Assembly (NCBI RefSeq): GCF_050003625.1
Contig: NC_134397.1
Coordinates: 268,950,070 to 269,014,069, forward strand
Length of the DNA stretch: 64,000 nt
Direction of reading: 5' to 3'
Source of the DNA: Haematobia irritans
Taxonomy: Eukaryota; Arthropoda; Insecta; Diptera; Muscidae
A program made the translations under genes and the position numbers. The notes under the pieces are model-generated. The model was not told where the DNA came from. It saw only the letters and a list, made by a program, of their open reading frames with translations, and did no database searches. The first letter of the stretch is position 1. The number at the start of each line of letters is the position of its first letter. This document shows, in pieces, positions 3,280 through 59,915 of the stretch.

Positions 3280-4060
3280 CCTTGGTCATATGAGTGCAAT
3301 TCGGACGGAAGATATATACATATCTAAATCTGAACCGATTTCAACCAAATTTGCCACAATTACCTATACTACTAAACGTACTCCTTATGCGAAATTTGAA
3401 GCAAATCACGGCAAAACCCTGGATTTTGAGACCATATAAGTTTAAATCGAACGAAATATATATATGGGAGCTATATCTAAATCTGAATTGATTTTGACCA
3501 TATTTGGCACATACAATAGTATCGTTAAAAGTACCGCTTGTGCAAAATTTGAAGTAAGTCAGGGCAAAACTCTGGCTTTTGAGACCATATAAGTCCAAAT
3601 CGGGCGAAAGATATATATGTGAGCTATATCTAAATCTGAACCGATTTTAACAAAATTTGACACACTTAACGATACTATTAAACGTACCTCTTGTGCAAAA
3701 TTTGAAGCAAATCACGGCAAAACTCTGTTCAAATCGGATGAAAGATATATATGGGAGCTATATCTAAATTTGAACCGATTTAAATCAAATTTACCAAGTA
3801 TTGGTAGAATGTCAATTCTACCCTCTGTGCAAAATTTCACGAAGATCGGTAGTAAACTTTGGCCTCTTTGGTAATATGAGTCTAAATCGGATGAATGATA
3901 TATATGGGAGCTATATCTAAATCTGAACCGATTTGGCTGATATTTTGCAATATTTTCGAGATTCATAAAATATTTGGATGTACGGTATTTCAAGAAAATC
4001 GGTTGATAAACACGCTAACTATGACCACATCGGGGATAAATATCTATGGCAGCTATATCT
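3280..4060. repeat. Family B tandem units, diverged
   Basis: Repeats of ATATATGGGAGCTATATC followed by AAATCTGAACCGATTT recur at about 150-bp intervals, and the units are quite diverged. The open frames seen here arise from the repeat and show no coding features. Confidence 0.7.
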
Positions 4061-4859
4061 AAATCTGAACCGATTTTTTCCGATCCGGCTGAAATTTGGT
4101 ACATGGTGTTAGTATATGGTTTCTAAGAACCATGCAAAAATTGGTCCACATCGGTCCATAATTATATATAGCCCCCATATAAACCGATCCCCAGATTTGG
4201 CTTGCGGAGCCTCTAAGAGAAGCAAATTTCATCCGATCTGGCTGAAATTTGGTAGGTGGTGTAAGCATATGATCTCTAACAAGCATGCAAAAATTGGTTC
4301 TCGTCGGTCCATAATTATATATAGCCCCCTTATAAACCGATCCCCAGATTTGGCTTACGGAGCCTCTAAGAGAAGCAAATCTCATTCTATCCGGCTGAAC
4401 CTTGGTACATGGTGTAAGTATATGGTCTCTAACAACCATGCAAAAATTGGTCCACATCGGTCCATAATTATATATAACCCCCATATAAACCAATCCCCAG
4501 ATTTGAACTCCGGAGCCCCTTGGAAGAACAAAATTCATCCGATTCGGTTGAAATTTGGTACGTGATGTTAGTTTATGGTATCCAACAACCATTCAGGAAA
4601 TGGTTCATATCAAAAGTGGTCCATATCAGTCCATAATCATATATAGCCCCCGTATAAACCAACCCCGAAATTAAGTTTTGGAGCCTCTTGGAGGAGAAAA
4701 TTTCATCCGAGTCAGTTGAAATTTGGTACATTGTGCTAGTATATGGCCGTTAACAACCATGCCAAACTGGGTCCATATCGGTCTATAGTTATATATAGCC
4801 ATCAGATAAATCGATCCCCAATCACACAAAAATTGGTCCATATTAAGTTCATTTGTATA
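4060..4859. repeat. Family A tandem array, 153-bp units
   Basis: Units contain GGAGCCTCTAAGAGAAGC, AAAAATTGGTCCACATCGG and ATATATAGCCCCCATATAAA. The landmark CCGATCC recurs at 4184 and CCGATCCCC at 4337, 153 bp apart. As 153 is divisible by three, the same frame stays open through several units on both strands (4116-4565 plus, 4059-4592 minus). I read this as an effect of the period and not as coding. Confidence 0.8.
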
Positions 4860-13852: not shown

Positions 13853-15154
13853 AAGGGTGATTCTTTTGAGGTTAGGATTTTCATGCATTAGTATTTGACA
13901 GATCACGTGGGATTTCAGACATGGTGTCAAAGAGAAAGATGCTCAGTATGCTTTGACATTTCATCATGAATAGACTTACTAACGAGCAACGCTTGCAAAT
14001 CATTGAATTTTATTACCAAAATCAGTGTTCGGTTCGAAATGTGTTTCGCGCTTTACGTCCGATTTATGGTCTACATAATCGACCAAGTGAGCAAACAATT
14101 AATGCGATTGTGACCAAGTTTCGCACTCAGTTTACTTTATTGGACATTAAACCAACCACACGAATGCGTACAGTGCGTACAGAAGAGAATATTGCGTCTG
14201 TTTCTGAGAGTGTTGCTGAAGACCGTGAAATGTCGATTCGTCGCCGTTCGCAGCAATTGGGTTTGTGTTATTCGACCACATGGAAGATTTTACGCAAAGA
14301 TCTTGGTGTAAAACCGTATAAAATACAGTGCAAGAACTGAAGCCGAGCGATCTGCCACAACGTCGAATTTTCAGTGAATGGGCCCTAGAAAAGTTGGCAG
14401 AAAATCCGCTTTTTTATCGACAAATTTTGTTCAGCGATGAGGCTCATTTCTGGTTGAATGGCTACGTAAATAAGCAAAATTGCCGCATTTGGAGTGAAGA
14501 GCAACCAGAAGCCGTTCAAGAACTGCCCATGCATCCCGAAAAATGCACTGTTTGGTGTGGTTTGTACGCTGGTGGAATCATTGGACCGTATTTTTTCAAA
14601 GATGCTGTTGGACGCAACATTACGGTGAATGGCGATCGCTATCGTTCGATGCTAACAAACTTTTTGTTGCCAAAAATGGAAGAACTGAACTTGGTTGACA
14701 TGTGGTTTCAACAAGATGGCGCTACATGCCACACAGCTCGCGATTCTATGGCCATTTTGAGGGAAAACTTCGGAGAACAATTCATCTCAAGAAATGGACC
14801 GGTAAGTTGGCCACAAAGATCATGCGATTTGACGCCTTTAGACTATTTTTTGTGGGGCTACGTCAAGTCTAAAGTCTACAGAAATAAGCCAGCAACTATT
14901 CCAGCTTTGGAAGACAACATTTCCGAAGAAATTCGGGCTATTCCGGCCGAAATGCTCGAAAAAGTTGCCCAAAATTGGACTTTCCGAATGGACCACCTAA
15001 GACGCAGCCGCGGTCAACATTTAAATGAAATTATCTTCAAAAAGTAAATGTCATGGACCAATCTAACGTTTCAAATAAAGAACCGATGAGATTTTGCAAA
15101 TTTTATGCGTTTTTTTTTAAAAAAAAGTTATCAAGCTCTTAACAAATCACCCTT
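13853..15154 (+). mobile_element. Near-complete mariner-like element, DD41D group
   Basis: A 1302-bp element with ends AAGGGTGATTC and AATCACCCTT, flanked by TA at 13851-13852 and 15155-15156. The inner parts of the inverted repeats are diverged. It encodes one transposase broken by a single frameshift, so it is the best preserved DNA transposon in the window. DD41D elements with similar text are known in flies and moths (the rosa group); that link is from memory. Confidence 0.9.
13966..15047 (+). pseudogene. DD41D mariner transposase, single frameshift
   Basis: Cut-and-paste transposase acting in the nucleus on its own terminal repeats. The first frame from ATG at 13966 gives the N-terminal part with paired helix-turn-helix motifs (about residues 1-120, including RRRSQQLGLCYSTTWKILRK). 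At about 14318-14328 the frame shifts; related proteins carry two more residues between KPYKIQ and QELKP, so a 4-base loss is the simplest cause. The second frame runs to the stop at 15047 and holds FSDEAHF, WFQQDGATCHT and LTPLDYFLWG, with 41 residues between the second and third aspartates. All three catalytic residues are intact. Total length is about 360 residues, normal for the family. The text differs clearly from the deleted copy at 10891. Confidence 0.9.
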
Positions 15155-16317
15155 TAGCTATTACATTGATAAACCCAATTTTAAGATAAATAGTTAATAG
15201 ATTTATTATTCCCTCCACCATAGGATGGGGGTATATTAACTTTGTCATTCCGTTTGTAACACATCGAAATATTGCTCTAAGACCCCATAAGGTATATATA
15301 TTCTGGGTCGTGGTGAAATTCTGAGTCGATCTAAGCATGTCCGTCCGTCCGTCTGTTGAAATCACGCTAACTTCCGAACGAAACAAGCTATCGAATTGAA
15401 ACTTAGCACAAGTAGTTGTTATTGATGTAGGTCGGATGGTATTGCAAAACGGCCATATCGGTCCACTTTTACGTATAGCCCCCATATAAACGGACCCACA
15501 GATTTGGCTTGCGGAGCCTCTAAGAGAAGCAAATTTCATCCGATCAGGCTGAAATTTGGTACATGGTTTTGGTATACGGTCTCTAACAACCATGCAAAAA
15601 TTGGTCCACATCGGTCCATAATTATATATAGCCCCCATAGAAACCGATCCCCAGATTTGGCTTCCGGAGACCCAAAGAGAAACAAGTTTCATCCGATCCG
15701 GCTGAAATTTGGTGCATGATGTTGGTATATGGTCTCTAACAACCATGCAAATATTGGTCCACATCGGTTCATAATTATATATAGTCTCCATATAAACCGA
15801 TCTTCAGATTTGGCTTGCGGAGCCTCTAATAGAAGCAAATTTCATCCGATCAAGTTGAAATGTGGAACATGGTGTTAGAGTATGGTCTCTAACAACCGTG
15901 CCAGAATTGGTCTATATCGGTCCATAATTAAATATAGCCCCCATATAAACGGTTCTCCAAATTTGACCTCCCGAGCCTCTTGGAGGGGCAAAATTCATCC
16001 GATCAGGTTCAAATGTGGAACGTGGTGTTAGTATATGGTCTCTAACATCCATGCAAAAATTGGTCCACATAGGTTCATAATTATATATAGCCCCTATATA
16101 AACCGATCCCCAGATTTGGTTTGCGGAGCCTCTAAGAGAAGCAAATTTCATTCGATCCGGTTGAAATTTAGAACATGGTGTTAGTATATGGCCGCTAACA
16201 ACCATACCAAAATTGGTCCATATCGGTCTATAGTTATATATAGCCGATTTCCAATCACACAAAAATTGGTCCATATCGGTTTATAATCATGGTTGCCACT
16301 GGAGCCAAAAATAATCT

Positions 16318-16766: not shown

Positions 16767-18050
16767 AAGGGTGATACGGTCAAAATTTGGTCAATATAAA
16801 CTTGATGTATTTCTTTCAATTTTGCATTTAAAAAACCTGAACACCCCTCATTTTGAAGGTGTGTGTGTGTGTAGAATATTGCTCCTATTTTGATTTTGGA
16901 ATTCACTCTTCAGTTGTCAAAATGCCGTCCAAGCAAGAAGAGCAGCGTATCAAAATTTTGCTCGCGCATCGCGAAAATCCGAGCTACTCGCACGCAAAGC
17001 TGGCAAAATCGCTAAAAGTTGCCAAATCAACCGTTACAAATGTAATTAAAGTGTTTGGGGAACGTTTGTCGACAGCCAGGAAGTTGGATCGGGGAGAAAT
17101 CGAAAACCGGAAGCCGCTGAGATGACAAAGAGAGTTGCCGGTAGTTTCAAGCGAAACCCTAACCTCTCTGTCCGAGATGCCGCAAATAAGCTGGGTGTAT
17201 CGTCTACAACCGTGCACCGAGCCAAAAACGAGCCGGACTATCGACTTACAAGAAGGTAGTGACTCCAAATCGCGATGATAAACAAAATATGACGGCCAAA
17301 GCGCGATCCCGGAGGCTGTACACGACATGCTGACGAAGTTTGACTGCGTGGTAATGGACGACGAAATCTACGTCAAAGCCGACTACAAGCAGCTTCCGGG
17401 ACATACGGCAAAAGGAAGCGGAAAGTTAGCAGATATTTTCAAGCACATAAAACTGTCAAAGTTCACAAAGAAATATCTGGTTTGGCAAGCTATCTGTACC
17501 TGTGGCTTGAAAATCAGCATTTTCATAGCTTCCGGGACTGTCAACCAAGAAATTTACGTGAAAGAGTGTTTGAATAAACGTCTGCTGCCCTTCCTTAAGA
17601 AACACGGTTGTTCCGTACTGTTTTGGCCGGATTTGGCATCTTGCCATTACGGTAAAAAGGCCATGGAGTGGTACGCCGCCAACAACGTACAGGTGGTTCC
17701 CAAGGACAAGAACCCTCCCAACACGCCAGAGCTCCGCCCAATTGAGAAATACTGGGCTATTGTCAAGCGGAACCTAAAGAAGACCAAAAAAAACTGCTAA
17801 GGACGAGCAGCAGTTCAAGGCAAACTGGCTTTCTGCGGCGAAGAAGGTGGACAAGGTGGCTGTACAAAATCTGATGGCAGGTGTCAAGCGTGAGGCCCGG
17901 CAATTCGGATTTGGAAAAGCGAAAGCCTAACTGAATATTTTTCCTGAATTTTATACTAATTGAACTTGAAAAAGAAATTTAATTTGATTTTTTAAATAAA
18001 CGATTTAAATCGGTGTTTTCCCTTGACCAAATTTTGACCGTATCACCCTT
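16767..18050 (+). mobile_element. ITmD37E-type mariner element, 29-bp inverted repeats
   Basis: The ends AAGGGTGATACGGTCAAAAT and complement match without mismatch over about 28 bp. TA flanks at 16765-16766 and 18051-18052; closing the gap restores the family A end GGCCGTATATACTTG. At 1284 bp it is full length. A second, damaged copy is at 45899-47165. Confidence 0.95.
16922..17930 (+). pseudogene. DD37E transposase pseudogene
   Basis: Starts MPSKQEEQRIKILLAHRENP with a helix-turn-helix (about residues 20-50, AKLAKSLKVAKSTVTNVI). The catalytic domain shows VMDDEIYVKADYKQ, LFWPDLASCHYG and LRPIEKYW, with 37 residues between the second Asp and the Glu, the DD37E signature. The reading frame is broken at about 17100-17125, again between 17230 and 17330, and in a run of A near 17795, and a few residues are missing after KQLPG. 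The three catalytic acids are still encoded. The family is known from mosquitoes and other Diptera. This copy cannot make an intact enzyme. Confidence 0.9.
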
Positions 18051-25000: not shown

Positions 25001-25039
25001 TAGATAACAACTAGTGATTGTTCAATCATACCGTCGATT

Positions 25040-25400
25040 TATAAATAGTAAGTTCTCCCAGAAAAAAATATCACCATAATATTTCTAATTAAAAAGTTGA
25101 TTGACTGATTGACGCAAAATTCATGCAAAATTAAATGGACTCGATCATTTGAGATGCCCATGATATTAGCAATTTCACGCACTTTTATTCGTCGATCATT
25201 TAATACCATATCATGCACTTTGGCTACAATTTCTGTTGTTGTTGCTGTTTTTGGACGTCCACTACGTGGTTCATCTTCAATGCTTGTACGACCACGTTTA
25301 AATTCAGCAACCCAATTTTTTACTGTTGCATATGAAGGAGCACTTTCACCTAACATATTCACCATATCATTATGAATGTCTTGTCCCAATAAAGCATTTT
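25040..25400 (-). pseudogene. Mariner transposase N-terminal fragment
   Basis: On the minus strand, the frame reads GESAPSYATVKNWVAEFKRG, then EDEPRSGRPKTATT and VREIANIMGISNDRVHLILH. These are the two helix-turn-helix segments and linker of a mariner-family transposase of the Mos1/SETMAR type. The frame is lost at the start (before MGQDIHND) and after LHEF, and the entire catalytic domain is missing. It is a DNA-binding-domain relic next to the MITE at 25410, with no terminal repeats recognised. Confidence 0.8.
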
Positions 25401-29942: not shown

Positions 29943-31330
29943 CAGCCCTAGTCAAATGTTATTACACATTGCTATTTTTTTTTTTCGTTTTTGTTGTACT
30001 TCTCAGATTGTTGTTGTTATTATTTCGAATATAAAGCAAGTTTGTTGGTTTTTGGATAGAATGAGGTGTGTGGAAGACGCGAGCAAAAATTCGCAAAAAA
30101 ATAACGGAACATTTCCCGAGAAAAAACACATTTGTCTGATGCTTTTTAGCGTCAAAAGTTATTACACACTATTTTTTCAAATCAAAAGTAATTAAACAAT
30201 AGCAATATCATAAGTTTTTCGCTACCTTGTGAGTTAAGTAGTTGTGTTTTACATTACTCTTGTAGAGGATTATGCAAAATATTAACATTGTTAATTTAAT
30301 ATACGAAAATGGTCAAAAGAAAGCATTTAAATATTGAAACAAGATCCGAGATTGTGACAAAATTTAAAATGGGAATTTCGGCTTCAGATCTTGTGAAAAT
30401 GTATGGTATTTCACTCAAAACGGTGTACAATTTAGAAAAAAGAAGGATACTTGTGGAAATTTAGAAGATAACAAGAAAAGTGGACGAAAACCTGTTATTG
30501 GACAAAGGGAGAAAACAAGATTAATGAGAGTCCTTATGGTAAATCCAACAATAAGCCCTATTCGCATTGCAGAAAATTCGGAAAAAGTAATTGGGAAAAA
30601 AGTAAGTGAAGCTACTTTACGTCGCAAGATGAAGAGCATAGAAATCAAAACCTATGTAGTCCGCAAAGCCATCGACATAACGCCAAACAACAAAGCCAAA
30701 CGGCATGCTTTTGCTCGAGAACATCTTAATAAACCAAAAGAGTTTTGGCACATCGTTTTGTGGACTGACGAGTCTTCTTTTGAGTTCCAGGGCTCTTTTG
30801 GAAGAAAGTATATGCATCTACCCTCAACTCTTAAAAGCAATGCACGACAGCCTCTGAACAGATTCGGGGGAGGATCTGTAATTTTTTGGGGATGCATATC
30901 ATTCTATGGATTGGGAGAGCTCGTACCAATTAAAGGAGCTTTGAATCAGTCTGGGTATATCGATGTGTTGCACGATCATGCATTTCCTTCAGCAAATAGC
31001 CTATTTCCAAGTAACGACTGGATTCTACAACAGGATAATGCTCCTTGCCATAAAGGATGGTTAATAACAAAGTTTTTAAATGAGGTAGATCAAGATGTTC
31101 TTGCATGGCCCCCTCAAAGCCCGGATCTTAACATCATTGAAAATGTTTGGAGTTTCATGAAACAAAACCGAATAATCGATAGAAATCGAAAACTTGAAGA
31201 AATTAAAAATATTTGGGCTAAAATACCTCTTTCTTTTATCCAAACCTTGATTGAGTCTATCCCTGCCAGGTTGCAAGCAGTAATTGATGCCAATGGCGGA
31301 ATTACTAAATATTAACTCTTTAAAATAAGT
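29943..31330 (+). mobile_element. Tc1-type element, right end missing
   Basis: Left end CAGCCCTAGTCAAATGTTAT follows TA (29941-29942). Three similar sites lie at 29951-29970, 30151-30170 and 30182-30200 (GTCAAAAGTTATTACACACT type), as in Tc1 elements with inner direct repeats. After the transposase stop the sequence passes into the family B end at about 31335 with no right inverted repeat. Confidence 0.85.
30309..31315 (+). pseudogene. Tc1-like transposase (DD34E), one frameshift
   Basis: The start at 30309 reads MVKRKHLNIETRSEIV with a first helix-turn-helix (GISASDLVKMYGISLKTVYNL). The frame breaks near 30440-30450 and recovers in the linker KKSGRKPVIGQREK. From there the frame is open to TAA at 31315. 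The catalytic motifs WTDESSF, LQQDNAPCH and SPDLNIIENVW are intact, with 34 residues between the second Asp and the Glu, the Tc1 spacing. It ends in the usual GGITKY. With about 335 residues it is normal length. Only the one frameshift and the lost right end are seen. Confidence 0.9.
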
Positions 31331-31730: not shown

Positions 31731-32040
<310 letters not shown>

Positions 32041-35640: not shown

Positions 35641-36169
35641 TTTTTATACCCTCCACCATAGGATGGGGTATATTAACTTTCTCATTCCGTTTGTAACACA
35701 TCAAAATATTGCTCTAAGACCCCATAAAGTATATATATTCTGGGTCGTGGTATATGGTCTCTAACGACCATGCAAAAATTGGTCCACATCGGTTCATAAT
35801 TATATATAGCTCCCATATAAACCGATCCCCAGATTTGGCTTGCGGCGTCTCTAAGAGAAGCAAATTTCATCCAATCCGGTTGTAATTTGGAACATGGTGT
35901 TAGTATATGATCTTTAACATCCGTGCCGGTATTGGTCCATATCGGTCCATAATTATATATAGCCCCCATATAAACCGTTCTCCAGATTTGACCTCCGGAG
36001 CCTCTTGGAGGAGCAAAATTCATCCGATCCGGTTCAAACGTGGTGTTAGTATATGGTCGCTAACATCCATGCAGAAATTGGTACCGATATAGTTATATAT
36101 AGCCGATCTCACACAAAAATTGGTCCATATCGGTTCATAATCATGGTTGGCACTCGAGCCAATAATAAT

Positions 36170-36598
36170 CTACCAAAATTTTATTTCTATAGAAAATTTT
36201 GTTAAAATTTTATTTCTATAGAAAATTTTGTCAAAATTTTATTTCTATAGAAAAATTTGTCAAAATTTTATTTCTATAGAAAATTTTGTCAAAATTTTAT
36301 TTCTATAGAAAATTTTTTTAAAATTGTATTTCTATAGAAAATTTTGTTAAAATTTTGTTAAAATTTTATTTCTTTAGAAAATTTTGTCAAAATTTTATTT
36401 CTATAGAAAATGTTTCAAAATTTTATTTCTATAGAAAATTTTGTCAAAATTTTATTTCTATAGAAAATTTTGTCAAAATTTTATTTCTATAGAAAATTTT
36501 GTCAAAATTTTATTTCTATAGACAATTTTATTAACATTTTATTTCTATAGAAAATTTTGTCAAAATTTTATGTCTATAAAAAAGTTTGTCAAACTGAA
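36170..36598. repeat. 29-bp minisatellite, about 15 units
   Basis: TTTTATTTCTATAGAAAATT plus TTGTCAAAA repeats with few changes. It is the most regular of the minisatellite tracts here. Confidence 0.9.
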
Positions 36599-36605
36599 TT
36601 ATATA

Positions 36606-37557
36606 CCCAGCAAAAACTAGGTAACCACATCTCATTACAATTGACATTACCAGGAGTAAATCTGTCATTACACGTTGCATTACATTGCGGCGAGTTATAA
36701 TGACTAACTTGTAATGACAAAAATAAATACTTCTCGGTAATTTTCGAATTGTTATTCTCAAATTTTATGCAGTTGTAGTTAACGAATTAATAAAATAGAA
36801 TAAATAATGGTACCATTAAGTATAATTATTCACATAATCGAGCACTTACATAAAAAATCAAAGAGAATATGTAATGTAACGGTAATTCTGAAAAATTTTC
36901 TGTTAAGAAATTTTTATCACAAATATTTCATAATAATTGTGTTTAATGACATTGTCATATTATGTTTTAAATAAATGCTTTCTTATACCTCATTCACATT
37001 ACACTTCCAAAATGCGCTTAAACTAAATTTCAAATGTCATTTGCCTTATAAGAAAGAGACTTAAAATCCACTTTTAGTAGATTTTGAACTTTATGTGAAT
37101 TCGATATATTATCACGATTCCAACTCCCTTAAACAACCTACATTTATTTCTATTTTAAGTGTGAACTTAATTTGCATCTTATTTAGATTATTTTTTAGAT
37201 TTTTTGTTTATTTATACAATATTCGTTTCTATTCAAGTAGTTCTCCTATTACAGCATCACTCGCCATATTTTGTAATCGGCGATAGAAATCAATATTTCG
37301 AGATTTGGTTGCCTGAGACAATAAGTGGCTATTTTGCAAGCTTTGGTGTATCTACGAATAAGTCATTACATATTAGGTGATTATATGCTTTAAATTCACT
37401 ACTTATTTATGGCCGAAAATATGCCTGGGGAGAAGTACTTTCCTTCTAGGACATGCGTATGTAAATGTAATCCGAAGCGATGCCTATTAATAAGTGGTTA
37501 TTAATTTTTTATTAGGCTTACCTACAAGATTACCGGGTAATGAGAGTTTTTGCTGGG
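36606..37557. mobile_element. 952-bp MITE with CCCAGCAAAAACT ends, TA target
   Basis: Starts CCCAGCAAAAACTAGGTAAC and ends GAGAGTTTTTGCTGGG. TA flanks at 36604-36605 and 37558-37559, and the unoccupied site in the family A copy at 16550-16562 reads GAATTATATACGTATTT. Many TAATGACA/TGTCATTA motifs lie inside. No transposase frame was found. Confidence 0.9.
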
Positions 37558-37883
37558 TACGTATTTGATCGATCGTTTTTGATTTAATATATACCACGTA
37601 TGGACTTACACACAATTTAGAAGACGGCAAGCGTTACCGCAACTTAAGTAATTCGATTGTGGTTGGCAGTGTTTAGAAGAAGTTTCTACGCAATCCATGG
37701 TGGAGGGTACATAAGCCTTGGCCGTACTTACGGCCGTATAGACTTGTTTTTTTTTTTGCTCAAACAAATCTTTATACATCTGGAAATACCATTTGTTTAA
37801 TAAAAAAATCTTTATTTCCTTATAATAATATCATATGTTTAAAATGTAAACAAAAAATGTTCAGAAAACTGTTGAAAAATGCA

Positions 37884-37889
37884 TTTATT
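37884..37889 (-). terminator. Poly(A) signal AATAAA
   Basis: AATAAA on the minus strand, 53 bases after the stop codon of the cysteine-knot gene, a normal distance for a short 3' UTR. Confidence 0.45.
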
Positions 37890-37941
37890 TGTATGTGAAT
37901 TATAATTTAAATATGCCGTCGATTTAGAGTCCATTACATGT

Positions 37942-38872
37942 TCATGCACATGCTCCATAATCTCTCCAATATTCAAGGGCACAATTATTTGAACAACAAT
38001 CGTCATTTTTAGTGCACTACAAATAAATAAAAAAAGAAACAAACAAAATGAAATTAATTTTAGAACGTACTGGGTAGGTATACCCGAAAAAATTTATTAT
38101 GTAAAGTTTCATTTATTCTATGAAAAAGTCCATTCATTTAAAAAAAAATTTAAAAAAATTATGTAAACTTATGTATCTGTATTAGTCCTTTAACTACCAT
38201 GTAAAAATTGTCCCACATAGGTCGATAAATATTTACACCTCCATATATACTGATCCCCAGATGTGAATTCCGGATCGTCAAATTTCATCAAATCCGGTTG
38301 GAATTTACCATACGAAAATTGGTTTATATCGGTTCAAAATTATTTATAGACTCATCTGTATAATCCGATAAAGAACTAAAGAGGCTATATTGGTATTTTA
38401 TCTGCATGTTTCTATTTAGCATAGACTCCCTATGGACTAACTTGCAATTTAGAAGGCAATAATGAGAAATAGAAACTAAACATTGCAATCGGAAATTGTT
38501 ACCACAACCCGAGTAATTCAATTGTGGAGGGTACATAAGAGTCGGCCATGCCGAACTTTCGGATGTATTTACTGGTTTTATATTACAGTGACACGCACAA
38601 AACAATAATGATTTTACTACTAACTATTTTATTATATATTGAGTTCACAGTACCACAGATGAATACAATTTTATTTCGCTGTGAAGTGAAATTTTCGAAT
38701 TGTTGAGATTTCTCATGAATCGGTGGATATATATAAATATTCTATTGGATCATACCTGTACACTTAATCCTTTACATATGGTTGAGAGTTTTTCTGTTGC
38801 TAACCACTCCGATTTCACTGATATGCCCAATACTAATAGTACTAGAAAAATATAAAATATTACAGAGTTCAT
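37942..38872 (-). CDS. Small secreted cysteine-knot peptide gene, two exons
   Basis: Exon 1 is complement 38756-38872 and exon 2 complement 37942-38016; the 739-bp intron has donor GTATGA and acceptor TTATTTGTAG after a pyrimidine-rich tract. Both junctions are in phase 0, giving 63 residues. Residues 1 to about 21 form a classic signal peptide with a hydrophobic core at 4-17. Six cysteines at 33, 40, 46, 47, 51 and 62 give C-x6-C-x5-CC-x3-C-x10-C, the inhibitor-cystine-knot (knottin) spacing. The exon break falls just before the second cysteine. A TATA box lies about 116 bases upstream of the ATG and AATAAA 53 bases after the stop. The product is probably extracellular. Knottins include defence peptides, enzyme inhibitors and channel-active peptides, so I do not assign a role. 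Expression is not shown by sequence alone. Confidence 0.7.
38155..38580 (+). repeat. Family A right-end fragment in the intron
   Basis: TTTACACCTCCATATATACT, GGATCGTCAAATTTCATC and GGAGGGTACATAAGAGTC with the GGCCATGCC hairpin and TTTACTGGTTTTA end. It is inside the intron of the cysteine-knot gene and opposite to it in orientation. Confidence 0.7.
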
Positions 38873-38987
38873 ATTTGTGAGAACGTAGAAGGTTGCGTGA
38901 TTAAAGGTTTCTGTTATATTCACTTCATAGAAAATTCATTATTGCTAGTTTCAATTGTAGTTAAAACTAAAAAGGAATTAGTCATGC

Positions 38988-38995
38988 TATATATA
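38988..38995 (-). promoter_or_regulatory. TATA box for the cysteine-knot gene
   Basis: TATATATA within GGTTATATATAGC on the minus strand. A start about 25-30 bases further would leave a 5' leader of roughly 85-90 bases before the ATG at 38872. In AT-rich DNA this alone is weak evidence; the position makes it plausible. Confidence 0.4.
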
Positions 38996-39185
38996 ACCTA
39001 ATTACAATAAAGTATAGAGATGTATACATTAGATTTATCTGATTATGCAAGTTGGACTTCCAAATACTGAAAATGAAATTTTCAATTGTTTTACACTGTT
39101 GAAGAACTGACACCAAGAAAAGATTTGATGAGTGCTTGGTGGATGCGGAAAGGATTCATCGATTATGAAATTTCATTGACATTAT

Positions 39186-42100
39186 TTTATACCTTCCACC
39201 ATAGGGTGTGGGGTATATTAACTTTGCCATTCCGTTTGTAACACATCGAAATATTGCTCTAAGACCGCATAAAGTCAATATATTCTGGGTCGTGGTGAAA
39301 TTCTGAACCGATCTAAGCATGTCCGCCCGTCCGTCTGTTGAAATCATGATAACTTAAGAACGAAACAAGCTATCGACTTGAAACTTGGCATAAGTAGTTG
39401 TTATTTATGTAGGGCGGATGGTATTGTAAATGGGCCATATCGGACCACTTTTACGTGTAGCCCCCATATAAACCGACCCCCAGATTTGGCTTGCAGAGCT
39501 TTTTGGAGGAGCAAAATTCATCCGATCCGGTTGAAATTTGGTATGTGGTGTTAGTATATGGTCTATAACAACCATGCAAAAATTGGTCCACATCGGTGCA
39601 TAATTATATATAGCCTCCATATAAACCGATCACCAGATTTGACCTCCGTAGCCTCTTGGTAGAACAAAATTCATCTGATTCAGTTGAAATTTGGTACGTG
39701 GTGTTAATATATGGCTTCAAACACCCGTGCAAAAATTGGTCCAAATCGGTCCATAATTATATATAGCCCCCATATAAACCGATCCCCAGATTTGTCCTCC
39801 GGAGCCCCTTGGAAGAGCAAAATTCATCCGATTCGGTTGAAATTTGGGACGTGATGTTAGTATATGGTATCCAACAACCAGGGCTGTGGAGTCGAGCCAA
39901 TTTTGCTCGACTCCGACTCCGACTCCAGCATTTTTCATCAGCTCGACTCCGACTCCGACTCCGGAGTCGACTCCGGGTAATATATCTAAATCTCATTTTA
40001 ATACCACAAATTTGTAGTTCTATTGTGGGGGTGCCGTAAGTGGATCGATATAAAGTATCGTATTTATTTATGTGTGCAAAAAAAGGTCTTAATTTCACTT
40101 TAGATGCCAATTGAACTCTATATTTAAAATTTAGGGCAATGTTTAATAAATAAAATAATGATATAAATACCCATCATAATATGAGAAGATACCAACAGTA
40201 TATGTATTTGTGGACCAAAATTATTGATACTATCTCAAATCCTTTAAATTTGTTGCGAACTATATGCATGAATTTGAATCTGAATCTATTTAGGCAAAAT
40301 TGTATATACTTCTACAAAATCTATGTACTTAAAATTTAAAACTAACGTTATGGGACGTAACACAATTTTAACAACAAATAAAAATGCAAGGAAAGTCTAA
40401 AGTCGGGCTGGCCGATTATAATATACTCTGCACAACTTTGTATTTAGATCTACATTTTGATAAAATCTCAAATCAAACTTCTACAAAATCTCGGGCAATA
40501 TTTGGGGAATATTTATAATTGTTTAGACAATTTTGCAAAAATGCATTTATGATTCATTCATTGAAAAATTTGAAAATTTGAGTCATTTCTACAAGTTTAC
40601 GACTTAGCAGTGAGTATCAGTAAGCATACAATTTTGAAAAAATTTTTGTCTAGTAAATAAAATTTTGACTAAATTTTCTATAGAAATAATATTTTGGCAA
40701 AATTTTCTATAGAAATCCAATTTTGACAAAATATATAGAAATAAAATTTAGAATAAAATTTGGCTAAATTTTGTATAGAAATAAAAGTTTGAAAAAATTA
40801 TTAATAGAAATACAATTAAAAAAAATTGTGTATTAATTTTACAAAATTTTCTATAGAAATAAAATTTTGCAAAATATTCTATAGAAACAAAATTTTGACT
40901 AAATTTTATATAGAAATAATATTTTGAATACATTTTTTATAGCAGTGAGTTTCAGTGAGCATCAGTAAGAAAACAAATTTGAGAAAATTTGCTATAGAAA
41001 TAAAATTTGACAATTTTTTCTTATAGAAATAAAATTTTGATAAAATGTTCACTAAAAATATGATTTAGGAAAAAATTTTGTGTAGAAAATAAAATTCTGC
41101 CAAATATTCTACAGAAACAAAATTTTGACTAAATTTCCTACAGAAACAAAATTTTGACAAAATTTTCTATAGAAATAAAATTTTGAAAAAATTTTCTATT
41201 GAAATAACATTTTGACCAAATTTTCTAATAAAAAAATCTATTACTATAAAATATTGGCAAAATTTTCTATAGAAATAAAATTTTGATTTAAATTTTTATA
41301 GAAATAAACTTATCAATAGAAATAAAATTTTGAAAAAAAAATTGTGTAACAAACTAAATTTTGCAAAATTTTCTATAAAAACAAAATTTTGACTCAATTT
41401 AAATAAATTCAATAAAATTTTGACTAAATTTCCCATAGAAAAAAATATTTCTATAGTAATAAAATTTTGAATAAATTTTTTATAGAAATAAAATTTTGAC
41501 AAAATTTGCTATAGAAATAAAATTTTGACAAAACTTTTTATAGAAATAACATTTTGACAATTTTTCTATAAAAAACAACTTTGAAAAAATTTTCTGTCAA
41601 TATTCCACATATGTATATGGCCTTAAGATAAAATTAAACAAAATAATTTCGATTGTTCGAAATATTTCAAATAAATTGATATGGGCATTAAAATGGATCG
41701 ATACAGCCTATCTTCTAGTCTAGCATTCTAGGAAACATAAAAAGATAGTCGTAATTGGAAGTTAATTTTCATTTACAATCATGCTGTACATTGGTCGAAT
41801 GAATAACGCAATGGAAACTAATTTGCGTAAAAACTTGCTTAGTTACAAAAATGTGAAGTATTTTAAAAAATTTGGTTTAGCCGGAGTCGGAGTCGAGCAA
41901 AATTTTTACGACTCCGACTCCGACTCCAGCAAAATCTTCAGACTCCGACTCCGACTCCACAGCCCTGCCAACAACCATGCAGGAATTGGTTCATATCAGT
42001 CTATAATTATATATAGCCCCCATATAAACCGATCCCCAGATTTGACCTTCGGTGCCTTGTGGAGAAGCAAAATTCATCCGATCTGGTTGAAATTTGGTAC

Positions 42101-45898: not shown

Positions 45899-47165
45899 AA
45901 GGGTGATACGGTCAAAATCAAGGGAAAACGCGTGTAAATCGGTGAAATCGTTTATTTAAAAAATCAAATTAAATTTCTTTTTCAAGTTCAATTAGTATAA
46001 AATTCAGGAAAAATATTCAGTTAGGCTTTCGCTTTTCCAAATCCGAATTGCCGGGCCTCACGCTTGACACCTGTCATCAGATTTTGTACAGCCACCTTGT
46101 CCACCTTCTTCGCCGCAGAAAGCCAGTTTGCCTTGAACTTGAAGCTCGTCCTTAGCAGTTTTTTGGTCTTCTTTAGGTTCCGCTTGACAATAGCCCAGTA
46201 TTTCTCAATTGGGCGGAGCTCTGGCGTGTTGGGAGGGTTCTTGTCCTTGGGAACCACTTGCACGTTGTTGGCGGCGTACCACTCCATGGCCTTTTTACCG
46301 TAATGGCAAGATGCCAAATCCGGCCAAAACAGTACGGAACAACCGTGTTTCTTCAGGAAAGACAGCAGACGTTTATTCAAACACTCTTTCACGTAAATTT
46401 CTTGGTTGACAGTCCCGGAAGCTATGAAAATGCTGCTTTTCAAGCCACAGGTACAGATGGCTTGCCAAACCAGATATTTCTTTGCGAACTTTGACAGTTT
46501 TATGTGGTTGAATATCTGCTACCTTTCCCCTTCCTTTTGCCGTATAAAACTCCTGTCCCGGAAGCTGCTTGTAGTCGGCTTTGATGTAGGTTTCGTCGTC
46601 TATTACCACGCAGTCAAACATCGTCAGCATCATCGTGTGCAGCCTCCGGGATCGCGCTTTGGGGTGTATTTTGTTTATCATCGCGATTTGGAGTCACTAC
46701 CTTCTTGTAAGTCGATAGTCCGGCTCGTTTTTTGGCTCGATGCACGGTTGTAGACGATACACCCAGCTTATTTGCGGCATCTCGGAGAGAGAGGTTAGGA
46801 TTTCACTTGAAACTACCGGCAACTCTCTTTGTCGTCTCAGCGGCTTCCGGTTTTCGATTTCCCCCTCCATCCAGACTTCCTGGCTGTCGACAAACGTTCC
46901 CCAAACACTTCAATTACATTTGTAACGGTTGATTTGACAGCTTTGCGTGCGAGTAGCTCGGATTTTCGCGATGCGCGAGCAAAATTTTGATACGCTGCTC
47001 TTCTTGCTTGGACGGCATTTTGACAACTGAAGAGTGAATTCCAAAATCAAAATAGGAGCAACATTCTACAGACACACACACCTTCAAAATGACGGGTGTT
47101 CAGGTTTTTTAAATGCAAAATTTAAAGAAATACGTCAAGTTTATATTGACCAAATTTTGACCGTA
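45899..47165 (-). mobile_element. Second ITmD37E-type mariner, one end trimmed
   Basis: Left end AAGGGTGATACGGTCAAAAT after TA (45897-45898). The right end stops at ATTTTGACCGTAT, lacking the last seven bases, and the flanking TA is gone. The empty site at 33233-33250 places the insertion in ATTAATATAT. It is closely similar to 16767-18050 in reverse. Confidence 0.9.
46021..47018 (-). pseudogene. DD37E transposase pseudogene, second copy
   Basis: Starts at 47018 with MPSKQEEQRIKILL and ends with the stop at 46021 after FGFGKAKA. The helix-turn-helix part has lost a few codons after AKL. VIDDETYIKADYKQ keeps the first Asp, and LFWPDLASCHYG and LRPIEKYW keep the second Asp and the Glu. Unlike the copy at 16922 it retains LPGQEFYTAKGRG and the lysine run after KRNLKK is intact. 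Frame changes occur near 46870, 46690 and 46440-46490. It is inactive, but its errors differ from those of the other copy. Confidence 0.9.
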
Positions 47166-48861: not shown

Positions 48862-50535
48862 ACAAGTAAGGAAAGTCTAAAGTCGGGCGGGGCCGACTAT
48901 ATTATACCCTGCACCACTTTGTCGATCTAAATTTTCGATACCAGATCACATCCGTCAAATGTGTTGGGTGCTATATATAAAGGTTTGTCCCAAATACATA
49001 CATTTAAATATCACTCGATCTGGACAAAATTTGATAGACTTCGACAAAATCTATAAACTCAAAATTTATGTCGGCTAATGCACTAGGGTGGAACACAGTG
49101 TAAAAAAATATGGGAAACATTTAAATCTGAAGCAATTTTAAGAAAACTTCGCAAAAGTTTATTTATGATTTTTCACTCTATATATATGTATTAGAAGCTT
49201 AAGAGAATAAGAGTCATTTTTACAACTTTTTGACTAAGCAGTGGCGATTTTACAGGGAAAATGTTGGTATTTTGACCATTTTTGTGGAAATCAAAAAAAA
49301 AAAACATATATATGGGATCTATATCTAAATCTGAACCGATTTCAACCAAATTTGGCACGCATAGCAACAATGCTAATTCTACTCCCTGTGCAAAATTTCA
49401 ACTAAATCGGAGTTAAAAATTGGCCTCTGTGGTCATATGAATTTAAATCGGGCGAAAGCTATCTATGGGAGATATATCTAAATCTGAACCGATTTCAACC
49501 AAATTTGGCACGCATAACTACAACGCTAATTCTACTCCCTGTGCAAAATTTCAACTAAATCGGAGAAAAAAATTGGCCTCTGTGGTCATATATGTGTAAA
49601 TCGGCCGAAAGCTATATATGTGAGCTATATATAAATCTGAACCAATTTCAACCAAATTTGGCACGCATATCTATAATGCTAATTATACTCCCTGTGCAAA
49701 ATTTCAATTAAATCGGAGTAAAAGATTGGCCACTGTGGTCATATATATGTAAATCGGCCGAAAGCTATATATGTGTGCTATATATAAATCTGAACCAATT
49801 TCAACCAAATTTGGCACGTATAGCTACAATGCTAATTCTACTCCCTGTGCAAAATTTCAACTAAATCGGAGCAAAAAATTGGCCCCTGTGGTCATATGAG
49901 TGTAAATCTGGCGAAAGCTATATATTGGAGATATATCTAAATCTGAACCGATTTCAACCAAATTTGGCACGCATAGCTACAATGCTAATTCTACTTCCTG
50001 TGCAAAATTTCAACCAAATTGTGGTAAAACTCTGTTTTCTGGGACCGTATTAGTCCATATCGGGCGAAAGATATATATGGGAGCTATACCTAAATCTGAA
50101 CCGATTTCAATAAAATTTGGCACAAATGACTATAGTACTAATTGTTCTTCTTGTGCAAAATTTTAAGCAAATTAGGGTAAAACTCTGGCTTCTGGGGCCA
50201 TATAAGTCCATATCGGGCGAAATATATATATATATATATATATATATGGGAGCTATATCTAAATCTGAACCGATTTCTTCCAAAATCAATAGGGATCTAT
50301 TCTGAGCCAAAACACATACTTGCGTCGAATTTGAAGTCGATTGGACTAAAACTTCGACCTAGACTTTGATTACAAAAATGTGTTCACGGCAGACGGACAT
50401 CGCTATATCGACTCAAAAGCCCATCCTGAGCATTTTTGCCAAAGACACCATGTGTCTATCTCGTCTCCTTCTGGGTGTTGCAAACATATGCACTAACTCA
50501 TAATACCCTGTTCCACAGTGTGGCGCAGGGTATAA
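48862..50535 (+). repeat. Family B element, complete, regular 153-bp array
   Basis: Starts AACAAGTAAGGAAAGTCTAA with the GTCGGGCGGGGCCGAC hairpin. The landmark ATATCTAAATC recurs at 49321, 49474, 49627, 49780 and 49933, exactly 153 bp each. It ends ATAATACCCTGTTCCACAGT and GGGTATAAAAAT. A short (TA)n (50222-50246) lies inside. This is the best full copy of family B. Confidence 0.9.
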
Positions 50536-54174: not shown

Positions 54175-55068
54175 CTAATACGATATAGTATTGCCCTTCT
54201 TTATTAGAACTTGCTGTAATCGGTGAGACGTAGAACATACAAAGTTTTTCAGAGTTGCCATATCGATTTTTCCCATTCTGTCGTAATTGCAGACTTCAGT
54301 TCTTTGGGTGTTGTATATTGCTTGGACTTCGCAAATACCTTAGCGGATAATATGCCCCAGAGATCTTCTATAGGATTTAGATCGGGACTTAGCGCTGCCC
54401 ACTCCAGTAAAGGTATATCACGAGACTTAAAAAAGTTTTTTTGTGAGACGTGCAACATGGATGGGAGCATTATCTTTTTGGAAAGTCCAAACTTCACCAT
54501 ATAACTCATCTATTAAATTGTTCTCCAATAAATCGACATATATCTCTGCGTTCATTTTGGTGAGGACAAAACATATTTTAGATTTTTCTCGTGCTCCAAA
54601 AGCTGCCCATACCATAAGAGATCCACCCCAGTGGGTGCGTTTATAGCAAGTTAGACGAGGGTACCAAGAATCTCTCCATTATTTGTGGTGGCCATCAGGA
54701 CCATCCAAATTGAATTTATTTTCGTCTCTAAATATAACCGTTTCGAACTCTTCGTCCCAAAACTTGCATTTTTCAACAAAAGAAATACGAACATTTTTAT
54801 GGTGCTGTGTTAACCTCGGTTTAATAATTTTATTTTCGTATTTTAGTCCTATATCGTGCTTGATAATTTGCTGAATTCGTTGTCTAGTCACATTCAGACC
54901 CAATTCTACTTTTATTTCTCTGTAGCTCATATTTTCATTGGCAGCAAGTTGGCGAATATGTCGCTTTGTCCTTTGGTCAACGGTTGGAATGCGTCCATTG
55001 CGTTTAGCACAACCGTAGTTTGTGGGATTTTTTTGTCGCCGATGCAATATATGCAAAATTGTTTGCAA
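54175..55068 (-). pseudogene. Tc1-like transposase pseudogene (Tc3-like text)
   Basis: On the minus strand from 55068: part of the first DNA-binding helix region and linker (KRNGRIPTVDQRTKRHIRQL), a second helix-turn-helix (SYREIKVELGLNVTRQRIQQ), then the catalytic domain. FRDENKFNLDGPDG holds the first Asp, FQKDNAPIHVA the second, and SPDLNPIEDLWG the Glu. A stop (TAA) follows HHK at about 54679 in frame with WRDSWYPRLTCYKR. Frames change again after TKK near 54430 and near 54255, then LQQVLIKKGNTISY leads to a stop at 54175. About 300 residues remain, nearly the whole protein. It is inactive. Terminal repeats were not identified. Confidence 0.85.
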
Positions 55069-56446: not shown

Positions 56447-58411
56447 AACCCCATCATAGGATGGGGGTATATTAACTTTGTCATTCCGTTTGTAACACAT
56501 CGAAATATTGCTCTAAGACCCCATAAAGTATATATATTCTGGGTCGTGGTGAAATTCTGAGTCGATCTAAGAATGTCCGTCCGTCCGTCCGTCCGTCTGT
56601 TGAAATCACGCTAACTTCCGAACGAAACAAGCTATCGACTTGAAACTTGGGCCATATCGGTCCATATCGGTCCACTTTTACGTATAGCCCCCATATAAAG
56701 GGACCCTCAGATTTGACTTGTGGAGCCTCTAACAGAAGCATATTTCATCCGATCCGGCTGAAATTTGGTATATGGTGTTGGTATATGGTCTCTAACAACC
56801 ATGCAAAAATTGGTCCACATTGGTCCATAATTATATATAGCCCCCATATAAACCGATCCCTAGATTTGGCTTGCGGAGCCTAAAAGAGAAGCAAATTTCA
56901 TCCGATCCGGCTGAAATTTGCTACATGGTGTTGGTATATGGTCTCTAACAACCATGAAAAAATTGGTTCACATCGGTCCATAATTATATATAGCCCCCAT
57001 ATAAACCGATCCCCAGATTTGGCTTGCGGAGCCTCAAAGAGAAGAAAATTTCATCCAATCCGGCTGAAATTTGGTACATGGTGTTGGTATATGGTCTCTA
57101 ACAACCATGCAAAAATTGGTCCATATCGGTCCTTATTTATATATAGCCCCTATATAAACCGATCCCCAGATTTGGTTTGTGGAGCCTCTAAGAGAAGCAT
57201 ATTTCTTCCGATCCGGCTGAAATTTGGTACATGGTGTTGGTATATGGTCTCTAACAATCATGCAAAAATTGGTCCACATCGGTTCATAATTATATATAGC
57301 CCCCATATAAACCGATCCCCAGATTTGGCTTGCGGAGCCTCAAAGAGAAGAAAATTTCATCCGATCCGGCTGAAATTTGGTACATGATGTTGGTATATGG
57401 TCTCTAACAACCATGCAAAAATTGGTCCATATCGGTCCATAATTATATATAGCCCCCATATAAACCGATCCCCAGATTTGGGTTGCGGAGCCTCAAAGTG
57501 AAGCAAATTTCAGCCGATCCGCCTGAAATTTGGTACATGATATTGGTATATGGTCTCTAACAACCATGCAAAAATTGGTCCACATCGGTTCATAATTATA
57601 TATAGCCCCCATATAAACCGATCCCCAGATATAGCTTGCGAAGTCTCCAAGAGAAGCAAATTTCATCAAATCCGGTTGTAATTTGGAACATGGTGTTAGT
57701 ATATGATCTTTAACAACCGTGCCAGAATTGGTCCATATCGGTCCATAATTATATATAGCCCCCATATAAAACATTCTCCAGATTTGACCTCCGGAGCCTC
57801 TTGCAGGAGCAAAATTCATCCGATCCGGTTCAAATTAGGAACGTGGTGTTAGTATATGGTCGCTAACAACCATACCAAAATTGGTCCAATCACACAAAAA
57901 TTGGTCCACATCGGTTCATAATCATGGTTGCCACTAGAGCCAAAAATAATCTACCAAAATTTTATTTCTATAGAAAATTTTGTCAAAATTTTATTTCTAT
58001 AGAAAATTTTGTCAAAATTTTATTTCTAGAGAAAATTTTGTTAAAATTTTATTCGGTTCATAATAAAATTTTCATCATTGTCAAAATTTTATTTCTATAG
58101 AAAATTTTGTCAAAATTTTATTTCTATAGAAAATTTTGTTCAAATTTTATTCGGTTCATAGTCATGGTTGCCACTCCAGCCAAAAATAATTTACCATGAT
58201 TTTATTTCTATAGAAAATTTTGTCAAAAGTTTATTTCTATAGAAAATTTTGTTAAAATTTTATTTCTGTAGAAATGTTTGTCAAAAATTTCATTCTATAG
58301 AAAATTTTGTCAAAATTTTTATTTCTTTAGAAAATTTTGTGAAAATTTTATTTCTATAGAAAATTTTGTTAAAATTTTATTTCTGGCCGAACTTACGGCC
58401 GTATATACTTG
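56447..58411 (+). repeat. Family A element with the most regular 153-bp array
   Basis: Starts in CCCATCATAGGATGGGGG (the outer TATACCCTCCA is lost), has CCGTCCGTCCGTCCGTCTG, then about eight units with CCGATCCC at 57006, 57159, 57312, 57465 and 57618, exactly 153 bp apart. A 29-bp minisatellite follows, and the end reads GGCCGAACTTACGGCCGTAT then ATACTTGTT. The terminal hairpin is half deleted. Confidence 0.9.
57945..58388. repeat. 29-bp minisatellite, interrupted
   Basis: About 14 units. The lead-in GTTCATAATCATGGTTGCC occurs twice (57914 and 58154), so part of the tract was duplicated together with its border. Confidence 0.85.
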
Positions 58412-59605
58412 TTATAACTTGGTTCGTTCATACTTTTAATGGGTAATTTTAACTTTTTTTGTTTCAAATAGGTTAAAAACAGAGTAAGAATTCATAAAAT
58501 GGTACAAGTCATTTAAATTTTGTCGAAAAAAATGCTAAATCCAATCTAAAAAAATTGTAATTTTTTGAAAATATTTGAAGTCAAACGGTTCCGACAAGCG
58601 TTAAAATCCTTAAAAATTATAAAAAATTATAAAAATTATTTATTTGCCAAAATATCACAGAATTTTTTAATTTACATCCAAAACATTGAATTCGGATAAC
58701 ACCTAAAGAAGTGATGCAAATTCAGTGCAACGGTTGTTGAAATGGAGGATTTCCGTCCTATGACAAGCCCCTGTTAAATTCATCGCTTCTGCGTCAATTT
58801 TGCACCACTTCCGGATCCAAAAAGAACATTTTCATTGCTTTTTTGGCGACGCTATTTTTGCTGGGTAACACTAACATAAAAATCATTTTCTAGTTAAACA
58901 AAAATATTTCGTATTTTTTTTATAAAAAATCTATTTTTTCTAAAATATCAATTGAGTAGCATTTTTATTTAAAAATTAAATATTTTGAAACTCAAGAAAA
59001 AGTCCCGTGTTTTCAAAAACAGGTGATTTTTTATGGTGTTTCCGATAGATATGTCTATATGTGGTTATTTGTTTATAGTGTACTAGAATTTTATCATAAT
59101 TAGTAAAAAATTTCTACGTTTGCTGTGGAGAGTGGAAGAATCATGATTATTTGTACAAATTTTGACAAAACTCGAAAAGCCAAAGTACTCCATGTTTTGT
59201 TTCCGAAATGTTCCCAAAAATTTTCAAATTTATTTTAATATTTTCAAAAATTTCTTCAAAATGTAAAAACCTTAACTCCCTACGCTATGTGTCTAATGAA
59301 CGGAATTAATATCGTTAAAATCGGAATTGTCCATTTTGTGAGTAAAAAATCGTCAAAATGCCGATAAATCGGCAAAATTGGCAGCCCTGACCACAAGTAG
59401 AGAGTAGATAGTAGAGAGAAAAAGGAATATGTGTTTATTGGTAGGTAAGACATCAGAGTAGCAATAAGAAGTTACTCGTGGCTTTTGGTGTTCATCCAAA
59501 TGTATACCAATTGTTTTGCCACTCTCTCAAATAGATGTACTCACGTAGCAAGTACACGTGTACTCTGCATTTACAAATGGAATTGTGCAGACCTCTAGTA
59601 TAAAT

Positions 59606-59915
59606 ATTACAAATATGGTTATATTAAACTCGATTACATGTTAAGGTTCCGATCATATCCAGAATTGGCCTCATAATTTTAGCAAACTACTATGTAGTAG
59701 TTAAATGAATTATTCAAAAAAGTAGAACAATATGGCAGAAATTTGGCGTCAAGGAGTGAAACGTATTGGAATTTAGTGTCCTCACTTGAAAGAAGTAGCA
59801 CTTTCCCAATAAATTGGCGATATGAGAGCGCTACATACCACCATTTTTTTAACAAGTGATAATATTTTTTGGTTATGCTGGGGGCATCTCTAAACATTGC
59901 AGCCTTGTGTGTGTG
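59606..59915. other. No gene recognised
   Basis: Short stretch of AT-rich DNA between the hAT nest and the next element. The minus-strand frame 59679-59954 crosses into the next element and is not supported. Confidence 0.4.

Follow-up and report, generated by a model that had tools for sequence, protein, structure and literature searches.

A probable unannotated two-exon gene for a secreted, six-cysteine knottin-like peptide flanked by repeats

The minus strand of the 64,000-nucleotide stretch of DNA analysed here (the window) carries a short two-exon gene model that probably represents a real, unannotated gene. The coding part of exon 1 (38872-38756) holds the ATG, a signal-like stretch (approximately residues 1-21), an N-terminal stretch and the first cysteine, and ends in phase 0, while the coding part of exon 2 (38016-37942) contributes five of the six cysteines and the stop codon TGA. 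Their translations, MNSVIFYIFLVLLVLGISVKSEWLATEKLSTICKGLSVQ (39 residues) and CTKNDDCCSNNCALEYWRDYGACA (24 residues, then TGA), join in phase 0 to give a 63-residue precursor, in which all six cysteines lie C-terminal to the hydrophobic start and a single residue follows the sixth. Translation of both exons bears out the cysteine spacing given in an earlier note on this DNA, C-x6-C-x5-CC-x3-C-x10-C, corresponding to loops of 6, 5, 0, 3 and 10 residues. The broader claim of that note, a two-exon gene for a secreted six-cysteine knottin, is backed by this anatomy, by null tests and by loop similarity to a fly inhibitor-cystine-knot (ICK) peptide. Both exons, both splice sites, the start and the stop are intact. 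Annotation would easily overlook genes with two exons and such a short length.

The exons are separated by a phase-0 intron of 739 nt (38755-38017), located immediately 5' of the second cysteine codon, with the donor GTATGA and the acceptor TTTGTAG; the junctions read CAG/GTATGA and TTTTTTATTTATTTGTAG/TGC, respectively. The consensus donor and acceptor in matching phase noticed previously are confirmed; the donor score is equalled by 3.0% of the 6367 GTs and the acceptor score by 1.0% of the 5587 AGs in the window, both strands included. A stop codon made with the acceptor's TAG sits immediately 5' of exon 2 and closes the frame upstream, so that exon 2 is open solely from the acceptor onward. 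Downstream of the stop, and on the same strand, the expected poly(A) signal was found in two candidate copies of AATAAA, at 37889-37884 (53 nt beyond the stop) and at 37816-37811. The promoter evidence is weak. The proposed TATA box exists as a TATATAT heptamer (38995-38989, minus strand), but no TCAKTY initiator is suitably spaced from it: in the scan of 39180-38873, TCAKTY matches fell at 39110 and 39076, both upstream of the heptamer, and none where the heptamer would place the start of transcription.

The position of the intron agrees with that described for the hymenopteran ICK genes of naickins and amickin-1, which have a phase-0 intron before the second cysteine (PMC2853521); in our model, it lies directly before the codon of that cysteine. 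If an intron were placed at random over 42 mature codons and three phases, by our own arithmetic an exact match would be expected in 1 of 126 cases, and a phase-0 intron between the first two cysteines in about 7 of 126. This agreement was spotted after the gene model had been fixed and had no role in choosing it.

The best 12-residue hydropathy mean in exon 1 is 3.43, and signal cleavage, placed after residue 21 by a rule-based site only, would leave a mature peptide of 42 residues and 4.7 kDa. The computed pI of this peptide is 4.59 and its charge -2.2, which makes it acidic, and its ten-residue last loop reads ALEYWRDYGA. The spacing pattern of ICK peptides is C-x3-7-C-x3-8-C-x0-7-C-x1-4-C-x4-13-C, and the loops of 6, 5, 0, 3 and 10 residues all fall within it. 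Judged from the sequence, an ICK fold of the spliced product is likely.

A search among 5.8 billion proteins, Drosophila entries included, returned no homologue, with a method that finds close relatives only, since three shared 5-residue words are required. Pattern searches gave 17 stretches in viral contigs and 96 in prokaryote genome contigs, none confirmed as a homologue and none expected there. The best Pfam family was Toxin_21 (PF08091; E 0.01), whose 16.2 bits lie below the gathering cut-off of 21. The match to PMP22_Claudin (Pfam, E 0.088) was put down to the hydrophobic start, and the sole NCBIfam match (E 0.068) was irrelevant. The sequence neighbours in the PDB include ICK peptides at weak scores, such as U2-cyrtautoxin-As1a (2m36; E 0.24-1.3). 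Matches to interleukin-6 and TMH4C4 were judged to be due to chance, and those to short neurotoxins, which span 18 residues and involve three-finger toxins, were set aside. A profile that included asilid peptides returned the records of these same peptides (three of four candidates) and no bridging fly protein. The literature search found no paper linking ICK with Drosophila and seminal fluid. Nor did it find, among the matches listed (titles and the starts of abstracts), any ICK gene from muscids or blowflies, which does not prove absence from print. The main text of the stable-fly genome paper contains no word beginning with "knot" or "cysteine-rich".

The earlier statement that no named orthologue can be recognised stands, but it overlooked a similar named family, Asilidin1. 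Two peptides of this family from the assassin fly Dolopus genitalis, Dg10 and Dg12, are described with loops of 6, 5, 0, 3 and 6 residues (PMC6266666), and the sequence of Dg12 is carried by 6px7. The alignment identity of the predicted knottin is 38% to Dg10 and 30% to Dg12. We compared it loop by loop with six references (Dg10, Dg12, Dg27, Dg28, U2-cyrtautoxin and pB1; kappa-PVIIA and Dg29 were left out), keeping the cysteines fixed and shuffling the other residues 2000 times per reference. The similarity outside the cysteines was equalled in 2 of 2000 shuffles for Dg10, in 18 for U2-cyrtautoxin, 35 for pB1 and 38 for Dg12; as six references were tested, only the similarity to Dg10 is notable after correction. 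Dg27 (410/2000) and Dg28 (1936/2000) were no nearer to the knottin than shuffles. The first four loops, 6, 5, 0 and 3, are common to the knottin, Dg10, Dg12, Dg27 and U2-cyrtautoxin. Because the profile search retrieved no bridging proteins, the link to dipteran relatives rests on these shuffles and on the report in PMC6266666 that the closest relatives of Dg12 in nr are many predicted Diptera proteins.

Taken together, we consider it likely that the locus is a real insect gene, most likely from a fly, which is absent from the searched protein collections and codes for a secreted ICK peptide similar to Dg10 and Dg12 of Asilidin1. Under this reading, the exons would be transcribed and spliced at 38756/38016, a signal peptide of about 21 residues would be removed, and the mature peptide would fold into a knot with the pairing C1-C4, C2-C5, C3-C6. 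The acidic product, some 42 residues long (4.7 kDa), would then be secreted and could act extracellularly as a stable ligand or inhibitor, with the exposed ten-residue last loop, ALEYWRDYGA, as its likely contact surface.

An alternative that we find unlikely is a knottin-type host-defence peptide, induced by infection and released into the haemolymph or gut, where it would target the surfaces of fungi or bacteria. Antimicrobial functions are known among insect ICK peptides; host defence is reported for MaK, a beetle peptide, and has been proposed for the hymenopteran naickins (PMC2853521 for the naickins), with which the present model has its intron position in common. Defence is also suggested by the last loop of ten residues, which equals that of pB1, since a knottin from a wasp is described as matching two PDB entries, pB1 and the antifungal insect peptide Alo-3 (PMC9865768). 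However, the predicted mature peptide is acidic (pI 4.59, charge -2.2), whereas the pI stated for MaK is 8.29, and kappa-B-like patterns of three kinds had no match in 38873-40400. Given the acidity of the peptide and the absence of these three kappa-B-like patterns upstream, the favoured reading leans, if weakly, toward secretion by a particular gland (salivary or reproductive) rather than toward an immune effector.

A further alternative, which we hold to be quite improbable, is that open frames and splice-like sites have met by chance in AT-rich, intergenic DNA that is not expressed. The candidate was picked after scanning 64 kb, and the direct protein search gave no homologue, both of which are compatible with chance. 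We enumerated two-exon models under moderate filters: the start had to be signal-like, donor and acceptor fair, the intron no longer than 1500 nt and the product no longer than 110 residues, with six cysteines in ICK spacing. In the window, the knottin was the sole model to pass each of three filter sets, the moderate one being applied to both strands. Under the moderate filters, at least one ICK two-exon secreted model arose in 3 of 2400 Markov-simulated 64-kb sequences (1/800 at order 1, 2/800 at order 2 and 0/800 at order 4), a null that alone cannot prove the gene, because chance models would occur in a genome several hundred megabases in size. Loose filters gave an ICK model in 23 of 600 simulated 64-kb sequences, which leaves room for chance, and none in the reversed and complemented versions of the window. 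With filters near the observed quality, an ICK model appeared in 0 of 8000 simulated 64-kb sequences, and any model with at least six cysteines in 4 of 8000, although these null counts are not formal probabilities, because the model was already known when the thresholds were set. The resemblance of the loop residues to Dg10 and the agreement of the intron position with other insect ICK genes (PMC2853521) also argue against chance and for a real gene.

Repeats surround the model, where the earlier note had placed transposons on both sides. In a blastn survey of 36000-41000 against the window (E 1e-5), exon 1 and 308 bases upstream lie within 38586-39180, and exon 2 and 184 bases downstream within 37758-38187, neither of which has another copy in the window. 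Of two repeat fragments in the intron, 38188-38369 gives as many as 18 further alignments within the window and 38386-38585 as many as 9. Outside the gene, further copies within the window exist for 36000-36606, 37558-37757 and 39180-41000, so that within the surveyed interval repeats are confirmed on both flanks and in part of the intron. A pseudogene, decayed from a knottin gene that is still active at another genomic site, is very improbable, for the exons, splice sites, start and stop are all intact and tblastn shows no second knottin copy in the window (next match E 0.31), even if the repeats within and beside the gene, together with a weak promoter, would suit such a copy.

Several other features of the window were recorded. 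On the minus strand, 59536-59625 encodes a hydrophobic stretch followed by cysteines, with a weak tblastn match (E 4.1); Pfam gave no match on 59536-59640, and the stretch may be a further exon for a secreted peptide or a product of chance. Pfam searches covered 9 of the 33 listed open reading frames and one other stretch. Transposase-like frames of the Tc1/mariner kind lie at 13966-14340, 17327-17800, 25039-25389, 30524-31315, 46021-46443 and 54679-55068, the last two being under the Pfam cut-off and that at 30524-31315 having 60% identity to a protein of the Drosophila melanogaster subgroup, in keeping with DNA from an insect and probably a fly. An AT dinucleotide array of 151 copies with 98% matches occupies 31734-32035. 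Tandem arrays of period 153, with more than one consensus, make up 11 of the 38 arrays listed for the window and occur at many places (e.g., 56659-57888, 49307-50231 and 15453-16245); as 153 is a multiple of three, repetitive open reading frames such as 4059-4592 result. The window has no tRNA and no Rfam match at gathering score.

Returning to the secreted ICK peptide as the favoured reading, a more tentative and rather unlikely extension is that the gene is a non-asilid, non-venom member of the dipteran ICK lineage that gave the Asilidin1 neurotoxins, with an intron position common to hymenopteran ICK genes. If true, one insect ICK lineage would be traced back to a time before flies and wasps diverged. 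Confirming a relative outside the asilids whose intron position can be traced would open such an origin to testing; one more lineage-specific knottin would be an ordinary finding.

Among known systems, the naickins and amickin-1 of Hymenoptera share with the present model, by their description, the ICK framework and the phase-0 intron before the second cysteine, but they carry a proline-rich, positively charged C-terminal extension, of a type that is absent here. The plant peptide pB1 of Pereskia bleo (5xbd) has the same first loop of 6, CC, x3 and last loop of 10, and differs in its second loop (7 there, 5 here). U2-cyrtautoxin-As1a (2m36) has the same loops of 6, 5, 0 and 3, with a last loop of 6 instead of 10. 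Dg10 and Dg12 have in common with the predicted knottin a C-K start, a CCS motif, a tyrosine in the last loop and, by prediction here, a signal-bearing precursor; theirs comprises 78-80 residues and the one here 63. They differ in the last loop (6 residues there, 10 here), in the position of the first cysteine (residues 51-53 there, 33 here) and in being slightly basic, with pI values of 7.77 (Dg10) and 8.27 (Dg12) versus 4.59; moreover, they were found in venom. The Asilidin1 scaffold is described as Cx3-6Cx5-9CCx3-10Cx4-6C with 51-65 residues (PMC5793116), and the first four loops and the length of the knottin fit this description, while its last loop of 10 lies outside the range of 4-6. The predicted peptide thus departs from Asilidin1 proper at the last loop and yet looks built like Asilidin1.
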